Source: a virus
IMG/VR virus record: IMGVR_UViG_3300015265_000010
Span: 1-35,701 of that record
Length of the DNA: 35,701 nt
Reading direction: 5' to 3' (one strand)
The notes under the pieces are model-generated. The model saw only the letters and a list, made by a program, of their open reading frames with translations. It made no database searches and was not told where the DNA came from. Both the position numbers and the translations under genes were made by a program. This document shows positions 4,378 to 29,723 of this stretch, piece after piece (position 1 is the stretch's first letter; every line of letters starts with the position of its first letter).

Positions 4378-6980
4378 GCCAATGGGATTCGCTGATCCAG
4401 TCGGCCGGGCAGAAGTACAACGTCGACCCGCAACTGATCGCCGCCTTGGTGCAGACCGAAAGCAGCGGCAACCCCAATGCCTACAACGCCGAGTATGGCG
4501 CCACCGGCTTGGGTCAACAGATCCCGGCCACGGCCAAGGCGCTGGGGATCGACCCCAAGGACCCGGCGCAATCGATCGAGGGCGTGGCCAAGCTGCTAAA
4601 CGAGAACCTGAACCGCTACGGCTCACCTGAGCAAGCGGTTTTGGCCTATCACGGCGGCACCGATCAAGCCAACTGGGGGCCGAAGACCCAGGACTACCTG
4701 CGCAAGGTTTCCGCCAACTATGGAGCGCCGCCCGTGGCAGCCAAAGACAATCAGGTAGACAAAGCCGCATCCGATGCCTTCTCCGCGCGCTTCGGCTTTG
4801 TTCCTGGCGAAGACTCGCCGACGACCAAAGCGACCGACCCTGATTATTCGGCATTCAAAGAGCGCTTCGGCTTTGTGCCGGGTGAATCCCCGCCAGGCGC
4901 ACAGCCCGACACGGTGATCGGCCAGCAGCAACCGCAAGGTGGTCAGGTGATGTCAGCCGCCAATGCGCCACAGCAACAGGCGCCAGCCACACCAGGGCTC
5001 GACCTTCCCGGCATGGCCTGGCAGGGCTTGCAGAAGCTTGGTGAGGTCGGCATCGGCAACGCCAACGCCATCAGTCGCGGGATCAGTGACACCTTCGACG
5101 CGCCCAGCGAATGGCTGGCGGCCGGTGCGGAGAAATCCGGGCTGACCGGGCTGCTGGGCAAAGCCGGGATCAACATGCCGACCGCTGAGCAGCAAGCCGC
5201 GATCAATGCGCAGAGCCGCGCCGACTATGAGGGCCGCACCACTGGCGGTTTACAGCAAGGTGCCAGCCGTATGGCCGGCAACCTAGCCGGGGTGATCGCG
5301 CCGACCCTCGGGGCTGAAGCGGCCTTGGTCAAAGGTGGACAGGCCTTGAGTGGAGCCCTGGGCAATCCACAGCTGCTGACCCGTGCCGGCGAGTTCCTGC
5401 GCGGCCAAGGCGGTCTGGCTTCGCGGATGACCTACAACGCAGGCCAAGGTGCTGTTGGCGGCGCGCTGTTGTCCGGTGGACAGCCTGATGCATCGCTGGG
5501 CGACGCAATGACCATGGGTGCGGCGCTGGGGGGTGTGGTGCCGATTGCTGGTTCGATTCTCAAATACGGCGCCAATACCGGCAAAGCTTTGGTCGCCCCC
5601 TTCACCGAGTCCGGTCGCGCCGGGATTGCCCAGCGCGCCATCCAGGGTGAGGCAGCCAAGGATCCGCTGAATCAGGCGCAGAACGTCCTCGGTTCTGCTG
5701 CCCGAGCGGGCGCGAGTGATCCGGCGGTGCAGGCGGCGGAACGGATCGGCGCGGATGACGCGGTTAATCGAGCGGCGGCGGCTGGTCGGATTGACGCCAA
5801 CTTCAACGAGATCATTCCCGGCTCGCAGCCGACCCTGGCGCAGGCCACCGGCAATGCCGGGCTGGCGGCCTTGGAGCGCGCCGCCATGAGTCGCGCACCG
5901 AATGCCTTTGCTGAACGCCAGCTGTCGAACTACGCCGCGCGCAATGCCTATATGACCGAGATCAAAGGCACGCCGGAGACCCTGACTGCCGCCGTGGCCA
6001 AGCGTGAAGAGGAGGCTCTGCCGTTCCTGCGCAGCGCCTTGGAAAACGCCCGTCCGGCCAACGCCAACCCGGTGATGGCCGAGATCGACAGCATCTTGCA
6101 GGGTCGTGCCGGACAACGGGACGAAGTGGTCAAGGCGCTTGGCCGAGTCAAGGACAAACTCGATCTCGGCGAAGGCAATGGTCTGCAATCCAGCGTCGAG
6201 CAGCTGTACGGCATCCGTCAGAGCATCAATGACCAACTGGCCACCGTTGCCGGGCGTGACAACTCGGCCTCGCAGCTGGCGTCCAAGGAACTGATCCAAG
6301 TGCGCGACAAGCTGGACGATTCGATCCAGGCTGCCGCGCCCGGCTTCAAGGAGTTTCTCAAGACCTACAGCCAGCTGTCGCGCCCGGTGGATGCCCAGCG
6401 CTACCTGCAAGGCCTGGACCTGACCGACCAGACCAGCCAGCGCATCACCCTGAACAAGGTCAAGTCGGCGGTCAACCGTATCGAGAAGCTGCGTGGCGGC
6501 AATGGTGCCAACGAGGCCAAGTCGATCAGCGATGAGCAGCTGGCGATGCTGAAGAACCTGCAAACCGATTTGCAGCGCGAGGCGCATTCCTCACGCGGCA
6601 TGGCGCTCGGCTCCAACACCTTCCAGAACTTCGCCACCAACCAGCTGATAGATTCGATGATGCCCGGGATGGGGGCGATTGCGCCCGTCACGCCAGGGTT
6701 GGCCGGTGGTCTGCTCGGGCATGCCTTGGCGGGGCCGATGGGGGCCGGGATTGGTGCAGTCGGGGCACAGCAGGCGGCGGGCGTCTTGGGGCGGGCGATG
6801 AATGCCCAGGGGCCGGAGATTGAGGCGCGCCTGATCGATTACCTGCTGAACCCAAGAGGGGCCGAGGTGCTTAAGGCGGGGCGTACCTCAGCGACGCCGG
6901 CCATGGATGCGCTTTTGCGTCGCAGCACGCCGGTGGCGCCCGCCAGCCTCCTCACGCCGGGCAGCCAGAACAACCGCTAA
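4374..6980 (+). CDS. Ejection protein with N-terminal lytic transglycosylase domain (gp16-like, 868 aa)
   Basis: Residues 1-115 form a soluble-lytic-transglycosylase-like domain: catalytic-type glutamate E29 in QTESSGNPNA, the GLGQ motif at 45-48 and AYHGG at 91-95. These enzymes cleave the glycan strands of peptidoglycan. A linker follows with a 13-residue near-duplication (residues 136-148 and 161-173, core RFGFVPGE). The remaining 650 residues are Ala-rich and helical with several Gly/Ala hydrophobic stretches (for example 300-400 and 745-790) that could insert in membranes. Such a protein would open the cell wall and help build the DNA channel during entry. Fusion of the wall-degrading domain to a long helical ejection protein is common in podoviruses. 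Confidence 0.75.
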   Translation: MSQWDSLIQSAGQKYNVDPQLIAALVQTESSGNPNAYNAEYGATGLGQQIPATAKALGIDPKDPAQSIEGVAKLLNENLNRYGSPEQAVLAYHGGTDQANWGPKTQDYLRKVSANYGAPPVAAKDNQVDKAASDAFSARFGFVPGEDSPTTKATDPDYSAFKERFGFVPGESPPGAQPDTVIGQQQPQGGQVMSAANAPQQQAPATPGLDLPGMAWQGLQKLGEVGIGNANAISRGISDTFDAPSEWLAAGAEKSGLTGLLGKAGINMPTAEQQAAINAQSRADYEGRTTGGLQQGASRMAGNLAGVIAPTLGAEAALVKGGQALSGALGNPQLLTRAGEFLRGQGGLASRMTYNAGQGAVGGALLSGGQPDASLGDAMTMGAALGGVVPIAGSILKYGANTGKALVAPFTESGRAGIAQRAIQGEAAKDPLNQAQNVLGSAARAGASDPAVQAAERIGADDAVNRAAAAGRIDANFNEIIPGSQPTLAQATGNAGLAALERAAMSRAPNAFAERQLSNYAARNAYMTEIKGTPETLTAAVAKREEEALPFLRSALENARPANANPVMAEIDSILQGRAGQRDEVVKALGRVKDKLDLGEGNGLQSSVEQLYGIRQSINDQLATVAGRDNSASQLASKELIQVRDKLDDSIQAAAPGFKEFLKTYSQLSRPVDAQRYLQGLDLTDQTSQRITLNKVKSAVNRIEKLRGGNGANEAKSISDEQLAMLKNLQTDLQREAHSSRGMALGSNTFQNFATNQLIDSMMPGMGAIAPVTPGLAGGLLGHALAGPMGAGIGAVGAQQAAGVLGRAMNAQGPEIEARLIDYLLNPRGAEVLKAGRTSATPAMDALLRRSTPVAPASLLTPGSQNNR

Positions 6981-12672: not shown

Positions 12673-12972
12673 TTAAAGTTTTACAAGTCCTTCCCGGACC
12701 AGGGTGTCTAGGGTGCGGAAGCAGCCTTCCGCGTGCATCAATCGAAGTTCGTCTTGCGTGAAATCGGTTTTGCTTCGACCGTCTATTGCTGAGTGGCACC
12801 CGTCGCACGCCCAGGCCCCCTGTAGATCGTTTGGCTTGTAACCAGTGCCGCAGGTGCCAGCCAGTCGGTAATGCGCCAGCACGACGGTCTCGGGGTTGCC
12901 GTTGCAGATGCCGGGGATGCGCACCATGCAATCGCGTCCGCGTGCTGCTTTGGTGATTCGGTTCTGGCTCAT
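12673..12972 (-). CDS. YbcO-like putative nuclease (DUF1364 family, 99 aa)
   Basis: The sequence VRIPGICNGNPETVVLAHYR and AWACDGCHSAIDGR match the YbcO family of lambdoid phages, a zinc-binding HNH-like fold. Probable metal ligands or active-site residues are C15, C23, H34, C56, C59 and H60. YbcO-type genes sit in the nin-like regions of phages with recombination functions, as here beside ninB. The start overlaps the methyltransferase stop as ATGA. The family is recognisable; the nuclease activity is presumed. Confidence 0.8.
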   Translation of the reverse strand: MSQNRITKAARGRDCMVRIPGICNGNPETVVLAHYRLAGTCGTGYKPNDLQGAWACDGCHSAIDGRSKTDFTQDELRLMHAEGCFRTLDTLVREGLVKL

Positions 12973-14105
12973 GATTTATTGCCTTGGCAGTCTTTTAATA
13001 AATCCATCTGCGACCTTCCGTTGATTCTTTCTGCCGCAATTCGGCGCTCAGCCATGGACGCATAGTCGGGATTGAGTTCGCACAGGATCGACTTGCGTCC
13101 CTCCTGCATGGCGACTACCGCTGTGGTACCGGCACCGCCGAACGGGTCAATCACTATTCCGCCGCGTGGCGCTCCAGCCAAAACGCATGGCCGGATCAGG
13201 TCTGGCGGGAAGGTAGCGAAGTGGGCACCCTTGAAACTGTGGGTTGCCACGGTCCACACACTGCGCTTGTTCCTCGTCGCGGTGTCCCATGTTCTTTCCT
13301 TTCGGTCAGGCCGGTGCGTACCTTTGTTCTGACCCGGGATAACCTGCTCTCGCTTCGAGTCCTCTCGCTTGAAACTATCGCGCCGAGCACGCTCCGCACC
13401 TTCTTTGTGAAAAGCGCCGTGGGCACCGTCACCGGTTGAGGTATCCCAGCCGGTAGGTACCGTTGCCCGCGGCTTCGTCACGGCGTCGAATCCGTGACCG
13501 AAACCGACACCGGTGGGCGTGGCGCCATAAATCGCCGGCTCGCGTATCGCCTCCATGTCGCAGTGGTACCGCCGCGACTTGCTGAGCAGGAAGATGTATT
13601 CGTGGGCCTTTGTGCACCGGTCCCGCGTCGACTCAGGCATCGGATTCGGCTTGTGCCAGATGATGTCCTGTCGCAGGTACCACCCATCATCCTGCAGCGC
13701 GAAAGCCAGCCGCCAAGGCATTCCCATCAGGTCCTTCGGTTTGTACTCGGCATGGGTGGTGGCTTTCGCCTTCCGCTGCGAGGACATTACTTGGCGCTGG
13801 CTGATCGTGGAGACTCCTACTCCCATATTGTCACGGCCATGTGCGCCCCAGCTGCCGGCGTAGCTGTCGCCCATGTTCACCCATGCGGTACCGTCATCGC
13901 GGAGTACTCGACGCACTTCGCGGAAAACTTCAACCAAACGGCTGATGAACTCGGCAGGCGTTTGCTCGAGGCCGATCTGCCCATCGACGCCGTAATCCCG
14001 CAAACCGAAGTAGGGCGGGCTGGTGACACAGGTTTGCACTGACTGGTCAGGCAAGGTCCGCATCATGTCGATGCAGTCACCGACCATAATTTTATGATCC
14101 TTCAA
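12969..14105 (-). CDS. Site-specific DNA methyltransferase (probably N4-cytosine or N6-adenine)
   Basis: From a TTG start the protein has 378 residues. It has the catalytic motif TSPPYFGLRDY at 28-38 and the AdoMet-binding motif DPFGGAGTT at 320-328, so catalytic precedes binding motif as in the beta class. The SPPY form favours N4-cytosine but does not exclude N6-adenine. TTG at 14105 overlaps the ninB stop (TTGA) with GGGAGG eight bases upstream; ATG at 14087 and a longer ATG start at 14138 are alternatives. No restriction enzyme is adjacent, so self-protection against host restriction is the likely role. Confidence 0.88.
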   Translation of the reverse strand: MKDHKIMVGDCIDMMRTLPDQSVQTCVTSPPYFGLRDYGVDGQIGLEQTPAEFISRLVEVFREVRRVLRDDGTAWVNMGDSYAGSWGAHGRDNMGVGVSTISQRQVMSSQRKAKATTHAEYKPKDLMGMPWRLAFALQDDGWYLRQDIIWHKPNPMPESTRDRCTKAHEYIFLLSKSRRYHCDMEAIREPAIYGATPTGVGFGHGFDAVTKPRATVPTGWDTSTGDGAHGAFHKEGAERARRDSFKREDSKREQVIPGQNKGTHRPDRKERTWDTATRNKRSVWTVATHSFKGAHFATFPPDLIRPCVLAGAPRGGIVIDPFGGAGTTAVVAMQEGRKSILCELNPDYASMAERRIAAERINGRSQMDLLKDCQGNKS

Positions 14106-14515
14106 TATCTTCCCTCCCAGTGATCGATCTGCGTCCATTTCACGTCGTGTTCAGCGCCGAAAGCCTGAACCCATTCGATCAGCTCGGCGCATTTCTTCAT
14201 GCTGAGCTTTGAGGTTGGCTCGTACAGCACGTCGATGCCGTTACCGTCGATGGCCGGGATCATCTGGATGGTGCTGCCGCGCTCACGCAGCCATGCAGCC
14301 ATGCACAAGCGCTTCCAGATCGTGACATCCCACTTCATCCCGGCGTGTTCCACCTGGCGGGCGATGTCGGCCAAGCAGGCGTGCAGCTTCTTGTTCTGCT
14401 CGACGCTACGGTCCTCGCCAACAATGGTCACCTTCTTCGGCTTGGTCAGGTCCACGCCGGTCAGGTATCCGATCAGGCGATTACGGTCAGATTCGGTGAC
14501 CAGCTTGAAGTCCAT
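14102..14515 (-). CDS. ninB: NinB/Orf-family recombination protein
   Basis: A 137-residue protein matching the lambda NinB (Orf) family, with RSVEQNKKLHACLADIARQ, a central WKRLCMAAWLRE helix and a C-terminal LIEWVQAFGAEHDVKW. Lambda Orf binds single-stranded DNA and SSB and helps load annealing proteins in place of RecFOR. Its position next to a probable annealing protein and a Gp157-like gene fits that role. Length is close to that of lambda Orf (146 residues). Confidence 0.88.
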   Translation of the reverse strand: MDFKLVTESDRNRLIGYLTGVDLTKPKKVTIVGEDRSVEQNKKLHACLADIARQVEHAGMKWDVTIWKRLCMAAWLRERGSTIQMIPAIDGNGIDVLYEPTSKLSMKKCAELIEWVQAFGAEHDVKWTQIDHWEGRY

Positions 14516-14523
14516 GACTCACC

Positions 14524-15021
14524 TCACTTAATGCTGATCGACGACTTGCCGGTTTCACTGTGCGCGCCGGGGATTTCCTTACCTTCCTTGATCGCCTTGG
14601 CAATCTCAGCTTTCATCGGCGTGGTAGTGACCTTGGTGTTCATGTACTCATCCGGGATCTGTGCTTCCTCATCGATCACTACGATGGGCTTGCCTTTACC
14701 CAGGGTGATGGTGAACAGCGGGTGGGTAATTTTGGTGATGCCCGAGGCTTCCATGTTGGTGCGCAGGTATTCCTTCAGCGAGTCCTTGCGATTTTGCAGG
14801 ATGCGCTTGCGCTCGCTCAGGCGGTCAATCTGCGCCTGAATCGCGTCAAGATCACCGTCCATGTTCAGGGTGACCATGGCCAAGGCCTTGCCCTTCTCCT
14901 GAAACTCGCCCTCGATGCCTTCCATGGTGTCTTTCAGGGCGACGATCAGTTCGTCATCACCAGCGTCGGCCAGCTTGGCCAGCTCCTGATACTGCTTGCT
15001 GATTTCGTAGAGGGCGGTCAT
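14524..15021 (-). CDS. Gp157-family protein (165 aa)
   Basis: The first 95 residues are strongly helical, probably coiled coil (QAQIDRLSERKRILQNRKDS). A compact beta-rich end follows with PLFTITLGKGKPIVVIDEEA and IPDEYM. This pairing is the hallmark of the siphovirus Gp157 family. Members occur beside phage recombination genes and have been linked to phage resistance in Streptococcus, but the biochemical role is unclear. The start overlaps the upstream stop as ATGA. Confidence 0.8.
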   Translation of the reverse strand: MTALYEISKQYQELAKLADAGDDELIVALKDTMEGIEGEFQEKGKALAMVTLNMDGDLDAIQAQIDRLSERKRILQNRKDSLKEYLRTNMEASGITKITHPLFTITLGKGKPIVVIDEEAQIPDEYMNTKVTTTPMKAEIAKAIKEGKEIPGAHSETGKSSISIK

Positions 15022-15767
15022 TGGGCTTGCTCCTGATTGGTTGGCGCTGGCTCTTCAAAGCGCGCCTGCTGCTCGGTGTATTCGCGGGTGATACGGGTCA
15101 CCGCCGTGGTGTCCTTGCGAGCCGCCAGCCGGCGCACCGCGACGTCGTGGAAGGCCTTCAGTTCGTTCTTGGTCCTTGCCGTCTGCAGCGACTCGATCAC
15201 CGACTTGATGAAATCCAAGCGCTCCTGCTTCTGGCGTTCTTCTTCAGCAATCTTGTCTTCTGCACTCTCGACGCGCTCCCCGTCCTTCAGCTGGCTGACA
15301 TATTCAGCATCATCAAACAGCCCAAGGAACACGTCGGCACTGAAGCCCAGCATGGACAGGGATTTCTTAATGGCGTCTGTCAGCGACTTCTTTGGAGCTT
15401 CCGGATCAGTGCTGGTGCCGTATGTTGATTTGTAGAGGTACTTGGTGCAGCCGTACTGTTCAAACTGCCCGCGCTTGCCGTCGATCTCTGCCCAAAACAG
15501 GATCTTCACCGTATGGTTCAGCGCGTGGCCGAGGCTGAGGCGCTTGTCGCCTTCGCCGGAAAAGATCTCAGCTCCCGGGTCATAACGCTCTTCCAGTACC
15601 GTCCAGCCGAAGCCGAAGCCGGCCGGACCGAACACCTCGGTGGCCTTCATGATCATCGCCGTGCCGTTCAGGCTGGTGATGTTCTGGCCATCGACCTTGG
15701 CGGCCTTGGTGTACTTGGTTTCAGTGGTGCTTACCTGATCCCAGATCTTCATGTTGGGGTTGGTCAT
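15018..15767 (-). CDS. Probable single-strand DNA annealing protein (Rad52/ERF-like, 249 aa)
   Basis: The first 160 residues carry a pattern seen in phage annealing proteins: ITSLNGTAMIMKATEVFGPAGFGFGW near the N-terminus and KKSLTDAIKKSLSMLGFSADVFLGLFDD around residue 130-155. The C-terminal 90 residues are a charged helix ending in a Gln/Pro/Glu tail, often used to contact SSB. ATG at 15767 is in the TAATG overlap with the upstream gene and has GGAG nine bases before it. Adjacent ninB and Gp157 genes support recombination. The exact superfamily was not checked by search. Confidence 0.6.
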   Translation of the reverse strand: MTNPNMKIWDQVSTTETKYTKAAKVDGQNITSLNGTAMIMKATEVFGPAGFGFGWTVLEERYDPGAEIFSGEGDKRLSLGHALNHTVKILFWAEIDGKRGQFEQYGCTKYLYKSTYGTSTDPEAPKKSLTDAIKKSLSMLGFSADVFLGLFDDAEYVSQLKDGERVESAEDKIAEEERQKQERLDFIKSVIESLQTARTKNELKAFHDVAVRRLAARKDTTAVTRITREYTEQQARFEEPAPTNQEQAQ

Positions 15768-16855
15768 TACTTGGCACTCCATTTTTCAGCCAGCGTCAGC
15801 AGCTCATTGAAGGCGACGCGGACCGGGTGGCGCAGTTCGCGCTGGTGCTTGGCCAGCCAGTCCTGCAGTTCTTCTTTCGGGCTCTTAACCGCCATATGCA
15901 TGGCGCGCAGGGTCTGGTGGTCTTTGAACCCGCTGACCGCTGTGTGATAGCTGCCGCCGGTGTAGACGGTTTTGATCATGCCCCGGGCGACAACCGAATC
16001 CAGCTCGGCCTGGGACTTCACGGCGATAGCGCCAGGGTTCGCCTCTTTGAATTTCCGATAGCAGACCTCTTTCAAGATCTCCGGGCAGCCGTATTCCAGC
16101 AGGCTCAGATCGAGCACATCCTTTTCCATCATGTCGGCGATGTGATCCCACTGCTTGGTGTCCAGCCACATTTCCTTGGCCATGTGGCGCAGATCCCAGC
16201 TGTCGACGGTCTGGCGGTCACGCTCCAGCTTCAGGTGTTCAGGCAGCACGTCGTAGCCGTAGGTCAGATCGGTATTGCAGACGAATAGACCACCCACGTA
16301 CAGCTTGCCCGAGCGGCTCGGCAGGATGCTGCCGTAGCGCGTTCCGACCACGTCCGTCATCGGGGCCTGCATAAACAGACACATTTCATTGATTTGCGTG
16401 GTGTCGTCGTGATGCAGGCCGTCGATCTGGAACGTCAGGCCCTGGTTGTCGTAGATCGGCTCTTCGGTGATGGTCAGGACCTCGATGCCGAACAGATCGC
16501 TGTGAGTGAAGGCCGGGGTCCAGCTCACGCCGCCGTTGAGGACGGTTACCGGATAACCCAAGCGGGTCAGTACCAACAGCGCCAGCTTGAAGCCTTCGCC
16601 GAAACTGCCGATGGCGTCTGCGTTGTCGGCCTTGCTGGTTTGGCCAAGGACCAGGGTGCTGGCTGGCAGCGTGTCGAAGCGGCTGGTTATGCTGAGTTGA
16701 TGGCCGACGATGGAAAACTCGTTGGGCGACTCGCTGTCGAGCATGTTTTGCAGCAGTTCGCGTACAGCCTCGGTAACGCCCCAGTGGCGTACATAGTCGC
16801 GGGCCAGGGGCAGTTCGTAGGACTTGGATTTCGATTCGATCGTTGCGCTGGTCAT
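15767..16855 (-). CDS. GHKL-fold (HSP90-like) ATPase domain protein (362 aa)
   Basis: Near the N-terminus is the GHKL N box, VRELLQNMLDS, with E33, N37 and D40 placed to activate water and bind magnesium. The lid/G motif follows at 82-90 (IGSFGEGFK). These are the nucleotide-binding signatures shared by HSP90, gyrase B, MutL and histidine kinases. No kinase dimerisation domain or MutL endonuclease motif is visible; the remaining 200 residues are unrecognised. ATG 16855 has GAGGA six bases upstream. It lies directly behind the RNA hairpin at 16872-16974 and is coupled by TAATG to the annealing protein gene, suggesting a role in DNA processing or defence evasion. Confidence 0.75.
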   Translation of the reverse strand: MTSATIESKSKSYELPLARDYVRHWGVTEAVRELLQNMLDSESPNEFSIVGHQLSITSRFDTLPASTLVLGQTSKADNADAIGSFGEGFKLALLVLTRLGYPVTVLNGGVSWTPAFTHSDLFGIEVLTITEEPIYDNQGLTFQIDGLHHDDTTQINEMCLFMQAPMTDVVGTRYGSILPSRSGKLYVGGLFVCNTDLTYGYDVLPEHLKLERDRQTVDSWDLRHMAKEMWLDTKQWDHIADMMEKDVLDLSLLEYGCPEILKEVCYRKFKEANPGAIAVKSQAELDSVVARGMIKTVYTGGSYHTAVSGFKDHQTLRAMHMAVKSPKEELQDWLAKHQRELRHPVRVAFNELLTLAEKWSAK

Positions 16856-16871: not shown

Positions 16872-16974
16872 AAAAAAAAGGATTCAAGAAGACTGCCACC
16901 CTTGCGGGCGTTGGCGGACAGGAATTGGTTCCTGCGCAGTCTTCTTGAATCCTTACCAATTTTCAGTCCGCCAA
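16872..16974 (-). promoter_or_regulatory. Terminator-like hairpin with crossing alternative stem (attenuator or pseudoknot candidate)
   Basis: Read leftward, a perfect 17-base inverted repeat (16952-16936 with 16896-16880, GGATTCAAGAAGACTGC and its complement) encloses 39 bases and is followed by T8 at 16879-16872, like an intrinsic terminator. A second pairing crosses it: TTGGCGGAC (16974-16966) with GTCCGCCAA (16919-16911), and AATTGGT (16961-16955) with ACCAATT (16929-16923). A small local hairpin CAGGAA/TTCCTG lies at 16919-16934. The structures could form a pseudoknot or compete. The element abuts the GAGGA of the GHKL gene, so it could control transcription or translation of the recombination block. 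Confidence 0.8.
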
Positions 16975-16999
16975 GACTGTCTCTGTGGGGCGGATGTTG

Positions 17000-17326
17000 C
17001 TATGTTTCTGCCACTACGTCAAGCGCTGATTTCTTGTCGCTGGGCAGGTGATATACCAGCACCTCGGTGGTGTACTTCGGTCCTCTCTTGCGCGACAGCC
17101 CGACCCGGTGCAGCTCGCCTTGCATCAGCCGGTGCACGTCTTCCGGGTAGCAGTAGCCGACCTTGAACGGGACGAACTCCTGCACCCTGGTCAGGGCCTC
17201 GGCGCGGGCTAGCAGCGACATCAGTTCATCGACGTGGATGGTGCACATCTTGCGCCCGGACTGCTGCGCCATCTGCAGTTCGGCGTTCAAGGCGTTGAGG
17301 TCGATGGTGTTGGACCCACGGCTCAT
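17000..17326 (-). CDS. Hypothetical protein (108 aa)
   Basis: The start at 17326 has AGGAG eight bases upstream and overlaps the previous stop as ATGA. The N-terminal half is helical (NALNAELQMAQQSG ... DELMSLLARAEALTRV). The C-terminal half is basic and beta-rich (VGLSRKRGPKYTTEVLVYHL). No family recognised. It is the last gene before the hairpin region, which fills the 145 bases to the next start. Confidence 0.6.
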   Translation of the reverse strand: MSRGSNTIDLNALNAELQMAQQSGRKMCTIHVDELMSLLARAEALTRVQEFVPFKVGYCYPEDVHRLMQGELHRVGLSRKRGPKYTTEVLVYHLPSDKKSALDVVAET

Positions 17327-17499
17327 GCGTTTTGCTCCTGGTTGAGTTTCTTCAGCAGCGCCCGCTGCCGCTGGATCTGCCGCACGCACTTGCCGAAGCG
17401 CTGGGCCAGTTGGCCGTTGCTCAGGTTGCGCGACAGGATCAGTTGGTTTTGCTCGTCGGTGTATTTCAGCGACTCCATCACTTCAGCCAGTACGCTCAT
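17323..17499 (-). CDS. Small helix-turn-helix-like protein (58 aa)
   Basis: A short protein whose middle, LSNGQLAQRFGKCVRQIQRQRALLKK, looks like a helix-turn-helix of the sigma region 4 or resolvase kind (a helix LAQRFG, a turn, and a recognition helix rich in Arg and Gln). AAGGAG lies eight bases before the ATG. It could be a transcription factor for the accessory operon. The motif is suggestive only. Confidence 0.55.
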   Translation of the reverse strand: MSVLAEVMESLKYTDEQNQLILSRNLSNGQLAQRFGKCVRQIQRQRALLKKLNQEQNA

Positions 17500-20626: not shown

Positions 20627-20655
20627 ACTGTAGGCTCGCGGCCGGGTCCTGTCAA
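20627..20655 (-). promoter_or_regulatory. Leftward early promoter
   Basis: Minus strand TTGACA (20655-20650), a 17-base spacer and TACAGT (20632-20627). The -35 is perfect consensus. Transcription should start near 20620 and read the 58-residue gene first. It lies beside the operator repeats at 20676-20706. Confidence 0.75.
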
Positions 20656-20675
20656 CGGCAGAATAAATATTTCTT

Positions 20676-20706
20676 TCGGTACCATTGCAAGTCGCATCGG
20701 TACCAT
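20676..20706. promoter_or_regulatory. Two operator-like repeats in the divergent switch region
   Basis: TCGGTACCAT occurs at 20676-20685 and again at 20697-20706, 21 bases apart, that is two helical turns. Each contains the palindrome GGTACC. One copy lies in the spacer of the proposed rightward promoter, the other between the two promoters. The Cro-like protein encoded at 20752 is the obvious candidate to bind them. Confidence 0.65.
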
Positions 20707-20713
20707 ATAGATT
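20685..20713 (+). promoter_or_regulatory. Rightward early promoter
   Basis: TTGCAA (20685-20690), a 17-base spacer and TAGATT (20708-20713), with TATAGA two bases earlier as an alternative -10. It would start about 30 bases before the Cro-like gene. TTGCAA is its own complement and is also followed on the minus strand, after 17 bases, by TTTATT, so a second weaker leftward promoter is possible. Confidence 0.6.
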
Positions 20714-28383: not shown

Positions 28384-29723
28384 TGAAGCTCACGCTCAAG
28401 CAGGTTGAGGCGCAGGTGGTGCTGGCCGGAATGGCCATGTACCTGATGCTGTTTGGGGGCTCGCGATCGGGCAAGACCTTCCTGCTGGTGCGCAACATCA
28501 TCATGCGGGCGCTGAAGTCGCCCAAGAGCCGGCACATCATCGTGCGCCTGCGCTTCAACAGCGTGAAGAACTCGATTGTCCTCGACACCTTCCCCAAGGT
28601 CATGGACCTGTGTTTCCCCGGGGTGGCTTACAACATCAGCAAATCCGACTGGTACGCCAAGTTTCCCAACGGGTCGGAGATCTGGTTTGCCGGCATCGAT
28701 GACAAGGACCGCACCGAAAAGATCCTGGGCATGGAGTTCGTCACGGTGTACTTCAACGAGTCGAGCCAGATCCCGTGGGGGTCGGTGGGTATCGTGATCA
28801 CCCGTCTGGCGCAGAAGTGCATGCAGATCGTCGACGGCGTGGAAAGTCCGATGAAGCCGCGCGCCTACTTCGACTGCAACCCGCCGAACAAAGCGCATTG
28901 GTCCTATCGCCTGTTCATCGAGAAGCGCGACCCGGACACCAAGCTGACCGTGGCCAACCCGTCGAACTACCAGGCCTTCCAGATAAACCCGGACGCCAAC
29001 GCCGAGAACCTCACGCCCGAGTACATCGACAGCCTCAAGTCGCTGAGCGTGCGCTTGCAGAAGCGCTTCCTGAAGGGCGAGTTCACCGACGCCAACCCCA
29101 GCCAGCTGTTCAACGAAGAGAACATCGAGACCAACCGCGTATTGGACGGCAGCAACCTGCCCGACATGGTGCGCGTGGTGGTGGCGGTCGACCCCTCGGG
29201 CGCGGATGACGAGGCCGGCGCGGATAACGATGCGATCGGCATCATCGTCGCGGGGTTGGGCACCGACGGCAACGCCTACCTGCTGGAAGACTGCACCGTC
29301 AAGGCAGGCCCTGCGACCTGGGGCAACGTGGCCACCTCGGCCTTCGACCGGCATGAAGCGGACACCGTAGTCGGGGAAGGCAACTATGGCGGGGCGATGG
29401 TCAAGCACGTGATCATGACCGCCCGCCCACGCACTCCTTACAAGCAGGTCACCGCCAGCCGGGGCAAGCACGTGCGCGCTGAGCCGTTCTCCGCGCTGTA
29501 CGAGCAGGGCAAGGTTCGCCACGTCGGCCACTTCCGTGAGCTGGAAGACGAACTGGTTGCCTTCACCACCTTCGGCTACGTCGGTGAATCATCGCCGAAC
29601 CGCGCCGATGCCTTGATCTGGGCGCTGGCCGAGCTGTTCCCCGGCATGGTCCGGGCCAAGAAAGAACCAATCAAACAATCGAAGCCGCGCCCCCGCGTTG
29701 GCAGTCAAGGCTGGATGGGGTAA
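28383..29723 (+). CDS. Terminase large subunit (446 aa)
   Basis: Walker A is GGSRSGKT at residues 25-32, Walker B is FVTVYFNESSQI near 119-130 and a coupling motif follows. The RNase H-like nuclease part begins at VAVDPSGADD (about 262) and has further acids towards the C-terminus (NRADALIWALAELF). The enzyme pumps DNA through the portal and cuts it. ATG 28383 overlaps the small subunit stop as TGATG. Length is a little below P22 gp2 (499). Confidence 0.92.
   Translation: MKLTLKQVEAQVVLAGMAMYLMLFGGSRSGKTFLLVRNIIMRALKSPKSRHIIVRLRFNSVKNSIVLDTFPKVMDLCFPGVAYNISKSDWYAKFPNGSEIWFAGIDDKDRTEKILGMEFVTVYFNESSQIPWGSVGIVITRLAQKCMQIVDGVESPMKPRAYFDCNPPNKAHWSYRLFIEKRDPDTKLTVANPSNYQAFQINPDANAENLTPEYIDSLKSLSVRLQKRFLKGEFTDANPSQLFNEENIETNRVLDGSNLPDMVRVVVAVDPSGADDEAGADNDAIGIIVAGLGTDGNAYLLEDCTVKAGPATWGNVATSAFDRHEADTVVGEGNYGGAMVKHVIMTARPRTPYKQVTASRGKHVRAEPFSALYEQGKVRHVGHFRELEDELVAFTTFGYVGESSPNRADALIWALAELFPGMVRAKKEPIKQSKPRPRVGSQGWMG

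Follow-up and report, generated by a model that had tools for sequence, protein, structure and literature searches.

The motif UUGGCG is the documented target of the Inc RNA in plasmid ColIb-P9, whose replication initiator is under the control of a pseudoknot (work cited in PMC10724649; PMC9977716). Leaders of the IncI complex (ColIb-P9 repZ/inc, IncB, IncK and IncL/M) resemble the phage element described here in that UUGGCG lies in a hairpin loop (CUUGGCGG in ColIb-P9), and in that this loop pairs with a downstream sequence (CCGCCA) as a pseudoknot, ahead of the replication initiator gene. The ColIb-P9 loop reads CTTGGCGG and its partner TCCGCCAT, the sequences in the window (the whole stretch of 35,701 nt of viral DNA analysed here) being CTTGGCGG and TCCGCCAA. 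The plasmid leader has a longer spacing, an antisense Inc RNA and translational control, with no terminator, whereas the phage element, of about 105 nt, has two pseudoknots, a 19-bp terminator stem and no conserved leader peptide. Translational control in the IncI plasmid leader involves a leader peptide. The covariance model of the phage family found no match on the sense strand of the ColIb-P9 rep region. In the countertranscript attenuators of pT181 and pIP501, a replication gene is controlled by premature termination in its leader, and this needs an antisense RNA. The phage element would resemble them in terminating prematurely in the leader of a replication gene, but its arms and linkers covary freely, and one would therefore not expect it to keep an antisense promoter in a fixed place.

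The put RNAs of phage HK022 (putL and putR) have two stem-loops, are about 70 nt long and act on distant terminators (PMC9378689). They are structured RNAs of the leftward and rightward early operons, thought to govern termination, and are like the phage element in place and logic, but not in structure. The original prediction had pointed to put RNA for comparison; as a statement of membership this is not supported, since nothing in the early region of HK022 matched the family model (the top score was 13.8 bits, E 0.15). The lambda terminators tR1 and tL1, with N and nut, also lie between early gene blocks, but in the phage element the conserved structure is carried by the RNA itself. Finally, the fluoride and preQ1-I riboswitches set an early-folding pseudoknot against a late-folding terminator (PMC11077080). 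The phage element would be like them in this, but part of its pseudoknot lies inside the terminator stem, with no bases in common, and it sits in early operons with no ligand known.

The element in the window

The phage in the window is P22-like in make-up: it carries portal, terminase and DNA ejection genes, and O-like and DnaB-like replication genes. The element is found inside a leftward operon, ahead of the GHKL/exonuclease/Gam/NinB recombination genes. The features are these:

16872..16983, minus strand: whole leader RNA element (matched at 16982-16873 by the leave-out covariance model R2)
16964..16979, minus strand: P1 hairpin CAGTC/GACTG with hexaloop TTGGCG at 16974-16969 (alignment A2)
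16969..16974, minus strand: 5' side of pseudoknot 1, UUGGCG in the P1 loop, pairing with 16916-16911
16955..16961, minus strand: 5' side of pseudoknot 2, AATTGGT in the P1-P2 linker, pairing with 16929-16923
16936..16954, minus strand: 5' arm, 19 nt, of P2, the predicted terminator stem (inverted repeat)
16919..16934, minus strand: P3 hairpin CAGG/CCTG, its loop containing the 3' side of pseudoknot 2 at 16929-16923 (alignment)
16911..16916, minus strand: 3' side of pseudoknot 1, CGCCAA, the complementarity reaching 9 bp at 16911-16919
16898..16909, minus strand: P4 hairpin GCCC-GCAA-GGGU with a GNRA loop (alignment)
16878..16896, minus strand: 3' arm of P2, the predicted terminator stem (inverted repeat)
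16872..16879, minus strand: U8 tract, end of the predicted intrinsic terminator (sequence)
15767..16855, minus strand: downstream gene, GHKL-type ATPase (PHROG 6077), with SD GAGG at 16866-16863 and ATG at 16855
12673..15782, minus strand: rest of the downstream block (exonuclease, Gam-like, NinB, DNA methyltransferase, YbcO/HNH)
17000..17389, minus strand: upstream gene, function unassigned, terminating in a stop codon 26 nt upstream of the crossing stem

The long stem is a perfect inverted repeat of 19 bp (16878-16896 with 16936-16954), with 39 nt separating its arms. The original prediction gave a perfect stem of 17 bases with the same separation; perfection and spacing are borne out, the length is not. 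On the minus strand the stem is followed by T8 at 16879-16872, of which two T belong to the stem, and the element has the form of an intrinsic terminator, a 19-bp stem and then U8. The crossing stem consists of 9 bp (16966-16974 with 16911-16919) and 7 bp (16955-16961 with 16923-16929), and both pseudoknots are complementary, over 6-9 bp and 7 bp respectively. The run of eight T and the interleaved second stem of 9+7 bp are exactly as had been predicted. The U tract ends 5 nt short of the SD sequence GAGG of the GHKL gene, whose ribosome site the element had been said to touch. Both the 19-bp stem and the crossing stem are far beyond chance. When the window was shuffled six times with dinucleotides preserved, the longest arm was 10-12 bp, a crossing stem of 16 pairs arose in none of 4000 shuffles of flank plus loop, and the folding z of the minus strand is -6.5.

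No clear promoter of its own was seen for the window copy, the best -10 box having 3/6 matches. The leftward operon has a likely promoter, TTGACA-17-TACAGT, at 20655-20627. This sequence adjoins GGTACC-type palindromes between divergent early genes (20627-20710), possibly a repressor operator. The element is absent ahead of the GHKL gene in all 15 related loci examined, and two relatives with a GHKL gene 89% identical lack it and have a promoter at that place. It had been proposed that arms not conserved in relatives would refute the element; the arms are absent at the orthologous locus, but are kept elsewhere as a family. In the closest GHKL relatives (L004 and L005), a promoter TTGCCA-17-TATAGT of the gene itself is found inside TTGCCA/TGGCAA repeats, within about 100 nt before position 5001, at the place taken by the terminator element in the window.

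A family of phage leader RNAs

BLAST of the window element against phages, plasmids and 399 Pseudomonas genomes gave no match. The Rfam gathering score was reached neither in the window nor in any of 12 loci that contain family members, the best sub-threshold score being 22.7 bits against the 80 required; a sub-threshold match to the bglG leader was judged to be chance. No description of the element was found in a literature search lying mostly outside subscription journals. Judged by its sequence, the phage leader is a previously uncatalogued RNA family, absent from Rfam 15.

A descriptor combining a long stem, a long loop, a U tract and a crossing stem was run over the loci already collected, and singled out one of them (L194), which has CTTGGCGG, TCCGCCAAC and a GNRA hairpin in common with the window. 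A search motif built from these two was then scanned across IMG/VR. This gave at least 119 matching stretches, with 99 places among the matches listed accepted as having the whole layout. The family consists of about 100 homologues among the matches listed, each of about 105-110 nt, on environmental phage fragments, and is biased to UUGGCG, pseudoknot 1 having belonged to the search motif. A covariance model, R2, was trained without the window and L194. It scores 89 bits against the window (E 4.8e-20), 101.8 bits against L194, and 87.3 bits against the cultured Pseudomonas phage AH02 (E 1.4e-19), the calibration being short and the E-values rough. The model search of 398 Pseudomonadota host genomes found no match, which does not imply absence, since the pre-filter scores few candidates; a 29-bit match in one Pseudomonas genome is a plain long hairpin with the motif missing. 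Interleaved inverted repeats with a U tract are also found directly before an HNH endonuclease gene in another locus (L006, 7911-8022). Their sequence is unrelated and they are absent in a near relative (L007); they were considered as a second case and dropped, being unmatched by the family model.

The family layout is a P1 hairpin with loop UUGGCG, P2 of 19 bp, P3, P4 and U6-8, together with two pseudoknots, one joining the P1 loop to CGCCAA, the other the P1-P2 linker to the P3 loop. Alignment A2 contains 50 sequences and 42 modelled pairs. In it, 95.8% of cells are paired, a value equalled by none of 500 shuffles, with slid controls giving 32-43%. Changes on both sides are found at 35 of the 42 pairs. 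P1 is 99.5% paired, with covariation at 3/4 pairs, and all five modelled pairs of pseudoknot 2 covary; across the aligned members, covariation is present in nearly every predicted helix. Pseudoknot 1 is invariant in most rows because the search motif demanded UUGGCG pairing. Copies found by the model alone keep it with compensating changes, as in UUGGAG/CUCCAA (L321) and CUGCAA/UUGCAG (L203).

The length of P2 is fixed, the 5' arm being 19 nt in all 50 rows and both arms 19 nt in 49. A mismatch in mid-P2, A.C or other, occurs in 31/50 members (columns 43/111), the window stem being perfect. The fixed 19 bp and the recurrent A.C mismatch exceed the needs of a terminator, and P2 may therefore have another role. 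No conserved start codon or reading frame for a leader peptide is found inside the element in the family. The strand order is similar to that of HDV-like ribozymes, but this topology was set aside on inspection by eye, since P1 is in two parts, a U tract is present and Rfam gave no match.

Upstream of the element, a -10 box with at least 4/6 matches is found in 50 of the 56 copies examined, and with 5 or 6 of 6 in 35 of them, compared to 10% in shuffles. It lies mostly 10-13 nt upstream of the P1 loop, and transcription should therefore start at P1 in most copies. A clear -10 box is lacking in the window and in the L217/L271/L278 group. In the window, AH02 and the L217 group the element is inside an operon, the AH02 copy being located between NinB and gp51, with its U tract near record position 29,627. 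The host of AH02 is P. koreensis. Downstream, the start codon is usually 8-14 nt past the U tract. Among the matches listed, 92 copies have a called downstream gene, and a DUF1376 (PF07120) gene, a phage replication gene, comes immediately next in 57 of these and within the first three genes, as a DUF1376-type gene, in 73; the next gene is ParB-like, followed by a helicase, in 8 copies, and the preceding gene is Cro-like (P22_Cro) in 18. The homing-type or small ORFs between element and DUF1376 look like later insertions. In one member (L294), the second ORF downstream (783 aa, helicase-like), part of the replication operon that follows the element, seems to carry an intein-like insert (CFPGDTLISTPYG...). 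Two phages hold two copies each, and in both of them the pseudoknot 1 sequences differ between the copies.

A proposed attenuator and its alternatives

The family, its helices and their covariation, and the position of promoter and gene, are computed from the sequences, and the reading that we favour, on balance, is that the element attenuates transcription of phage early operons in cis and represents a new RNA family. During transcription, the 5' half would fold first, with the P1 loop UUGGCG pairing to CGCCAA and the P1-P2 linker to the P3 loop. In this early pseudoknotted fold the 5' arm of P2 would stay unpaired within a loop, as a read-through state. Once the last 27 or so nt have been copied, the 19-bp P2 could form before U8, and transcription would end just before the next ribosome site. 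The leader would then be a bistable attenuator, with a pseudoknotted read-through state and a terminator state, and the choice between P2 and the linker/P3-loop helix would set the output of the genes downstream, these being replication genes in most phages and recombination genes here. No base belongs to both P2 and the crossing stem, and the exclusion of P2 and pseudoknot 2 is a geometric argument: the two should not coexist because the linker strand joins P2 with a spacer of 0 nt and could not reach past a formed 19-bp helix to the P3 loop at its far end. A monomer holding all the helices together was rejected on the same kind of argument, from geometry. We infer termination, exclusivity, the folding order and a balance driven by a signal. 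Candidates for shifting the balance are a protein or ligand holding the early fold, the speed of RNA polymerase, and leader molecules acting in trans.

Folding predictions bear on both states. In nascent RNA predicted without the 3' arm, the crossing stem (at least 8/12 pairs) is in the optimum for 29 of 50 sequences, the window optimum having only 7/12 crossing pairs. In the full predicted RNA, P2 dominates, the values for the window being about -54 against -29 kcal/mol. The original prediction, of an attenuator or antitermination element before the recombination block, is well supported as far as a structured leader of attenuator type is concerned, by the terminator form, by a structure that is conserved and covaries across about 100 phages, and by the constant place directly before a start codon; membership with HK022 put is not. 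Several points count against the attenuator: the window copy itself has no clear promoter and stands alone at the GHKL gene, close relatives being without it; its nascent optimum has only 7/12 crossing pairs; P2 is of fixed length with a recurrent mismatch; the exclusion of the two states is argued from geometry; and the invariance of pseudoknot 1 in most rows was imposed by the search motif.

The same observations can be read in other ways. The -10 box positioned for a start at P1, the strong predicted terminator, the compact fold and the constant 19-bp P2 would all suit a stable small RNA of about 105 nt, acting in trans on RNA polymerase or on a host RNA or protein, with termination as the rule and the downstream gene served by leaky read-through. 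We consider this unlikely, as the U tract abuts the next ribosome site in almost all members and one functional class accounts for most of the next genes, both of which point to control in cis, and the window copy and those of the L217 group have no clear promoter. The small RNA and the attenuator would not exclude each other, since most members have a promoter of their own, and termination would release an RNA of about 105 nt. If the element were simply a strong terminator insulating the genes upstream, and the crossing complementarity an accident, this would account for the terminator shape and for the isolation at the GHKL locus. This is very improbable: the crossing stem is conserved and covaries in the family, and no promoter is seen in the 16 nt that separate it from the GHKL gene, which means that pure insulation would silence the block. 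It is also quite improbable, although less so, that the leader activates translation in the manner of the IncI repZ leader, with a pseudoknot near the ribosome site aiding translation and the U tract incidental. The CUUGGCGG loop and its CCGCCA partner stand before a replication gene as they do in ColIb-P9 (PMC10724649, PMC9977716), but the element contains no conserved leader peptide or start codon, and a 19-bp stem with a U tract, the terminator form, is found in every aligned member.

A further reading, which we put forward tentatively and at low probability, is dosage control by self-titration. Released leaders would pair in trans with nascent ones and promote termination as genome copies rise, much as antisense RNAs do in plasmids, though no separate antisense gene would be needed. 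The P1 loop of one molecule would pair with CGCCAA of another, and likewise the linker with the P3 loop; the product may be a domain-swapped dimer. Two copies of the leader RNA are complementary to each other in trans, a side-by-side dimer would fit with the fixed 19-bp P2, and IncI plasmids use the same loop motif in replication control. The differing pseudoknot 1 sequences in the phages with two copies are what would be expected if cross-talk is avoided; however, there are only two such phages, and divergence alone could explain the difference. There is a small chance that the leader counts phage genomes with neither a protein nor an antisense gene, terminated leaders dimerising with nascent ones through the two pseudoknot interfaces to stop the replication or recombination genes. 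Should this be so, copies within one phage would avoid cross-talk through their different loops.

The finding adds to phage gene control a widespread and strongly covarying RNA family that stands where the phage turns to replication or recombination. Because the loop motif also occurs in plasmid copy-control leaders, one may ask whether the control of phage and plasmid replication has a common ancestry here or has converged, and with Pseudomonas phage AH02 as a cultured carrier the element is open to direct tests. The element probably decides whether early phage genes are switched on.
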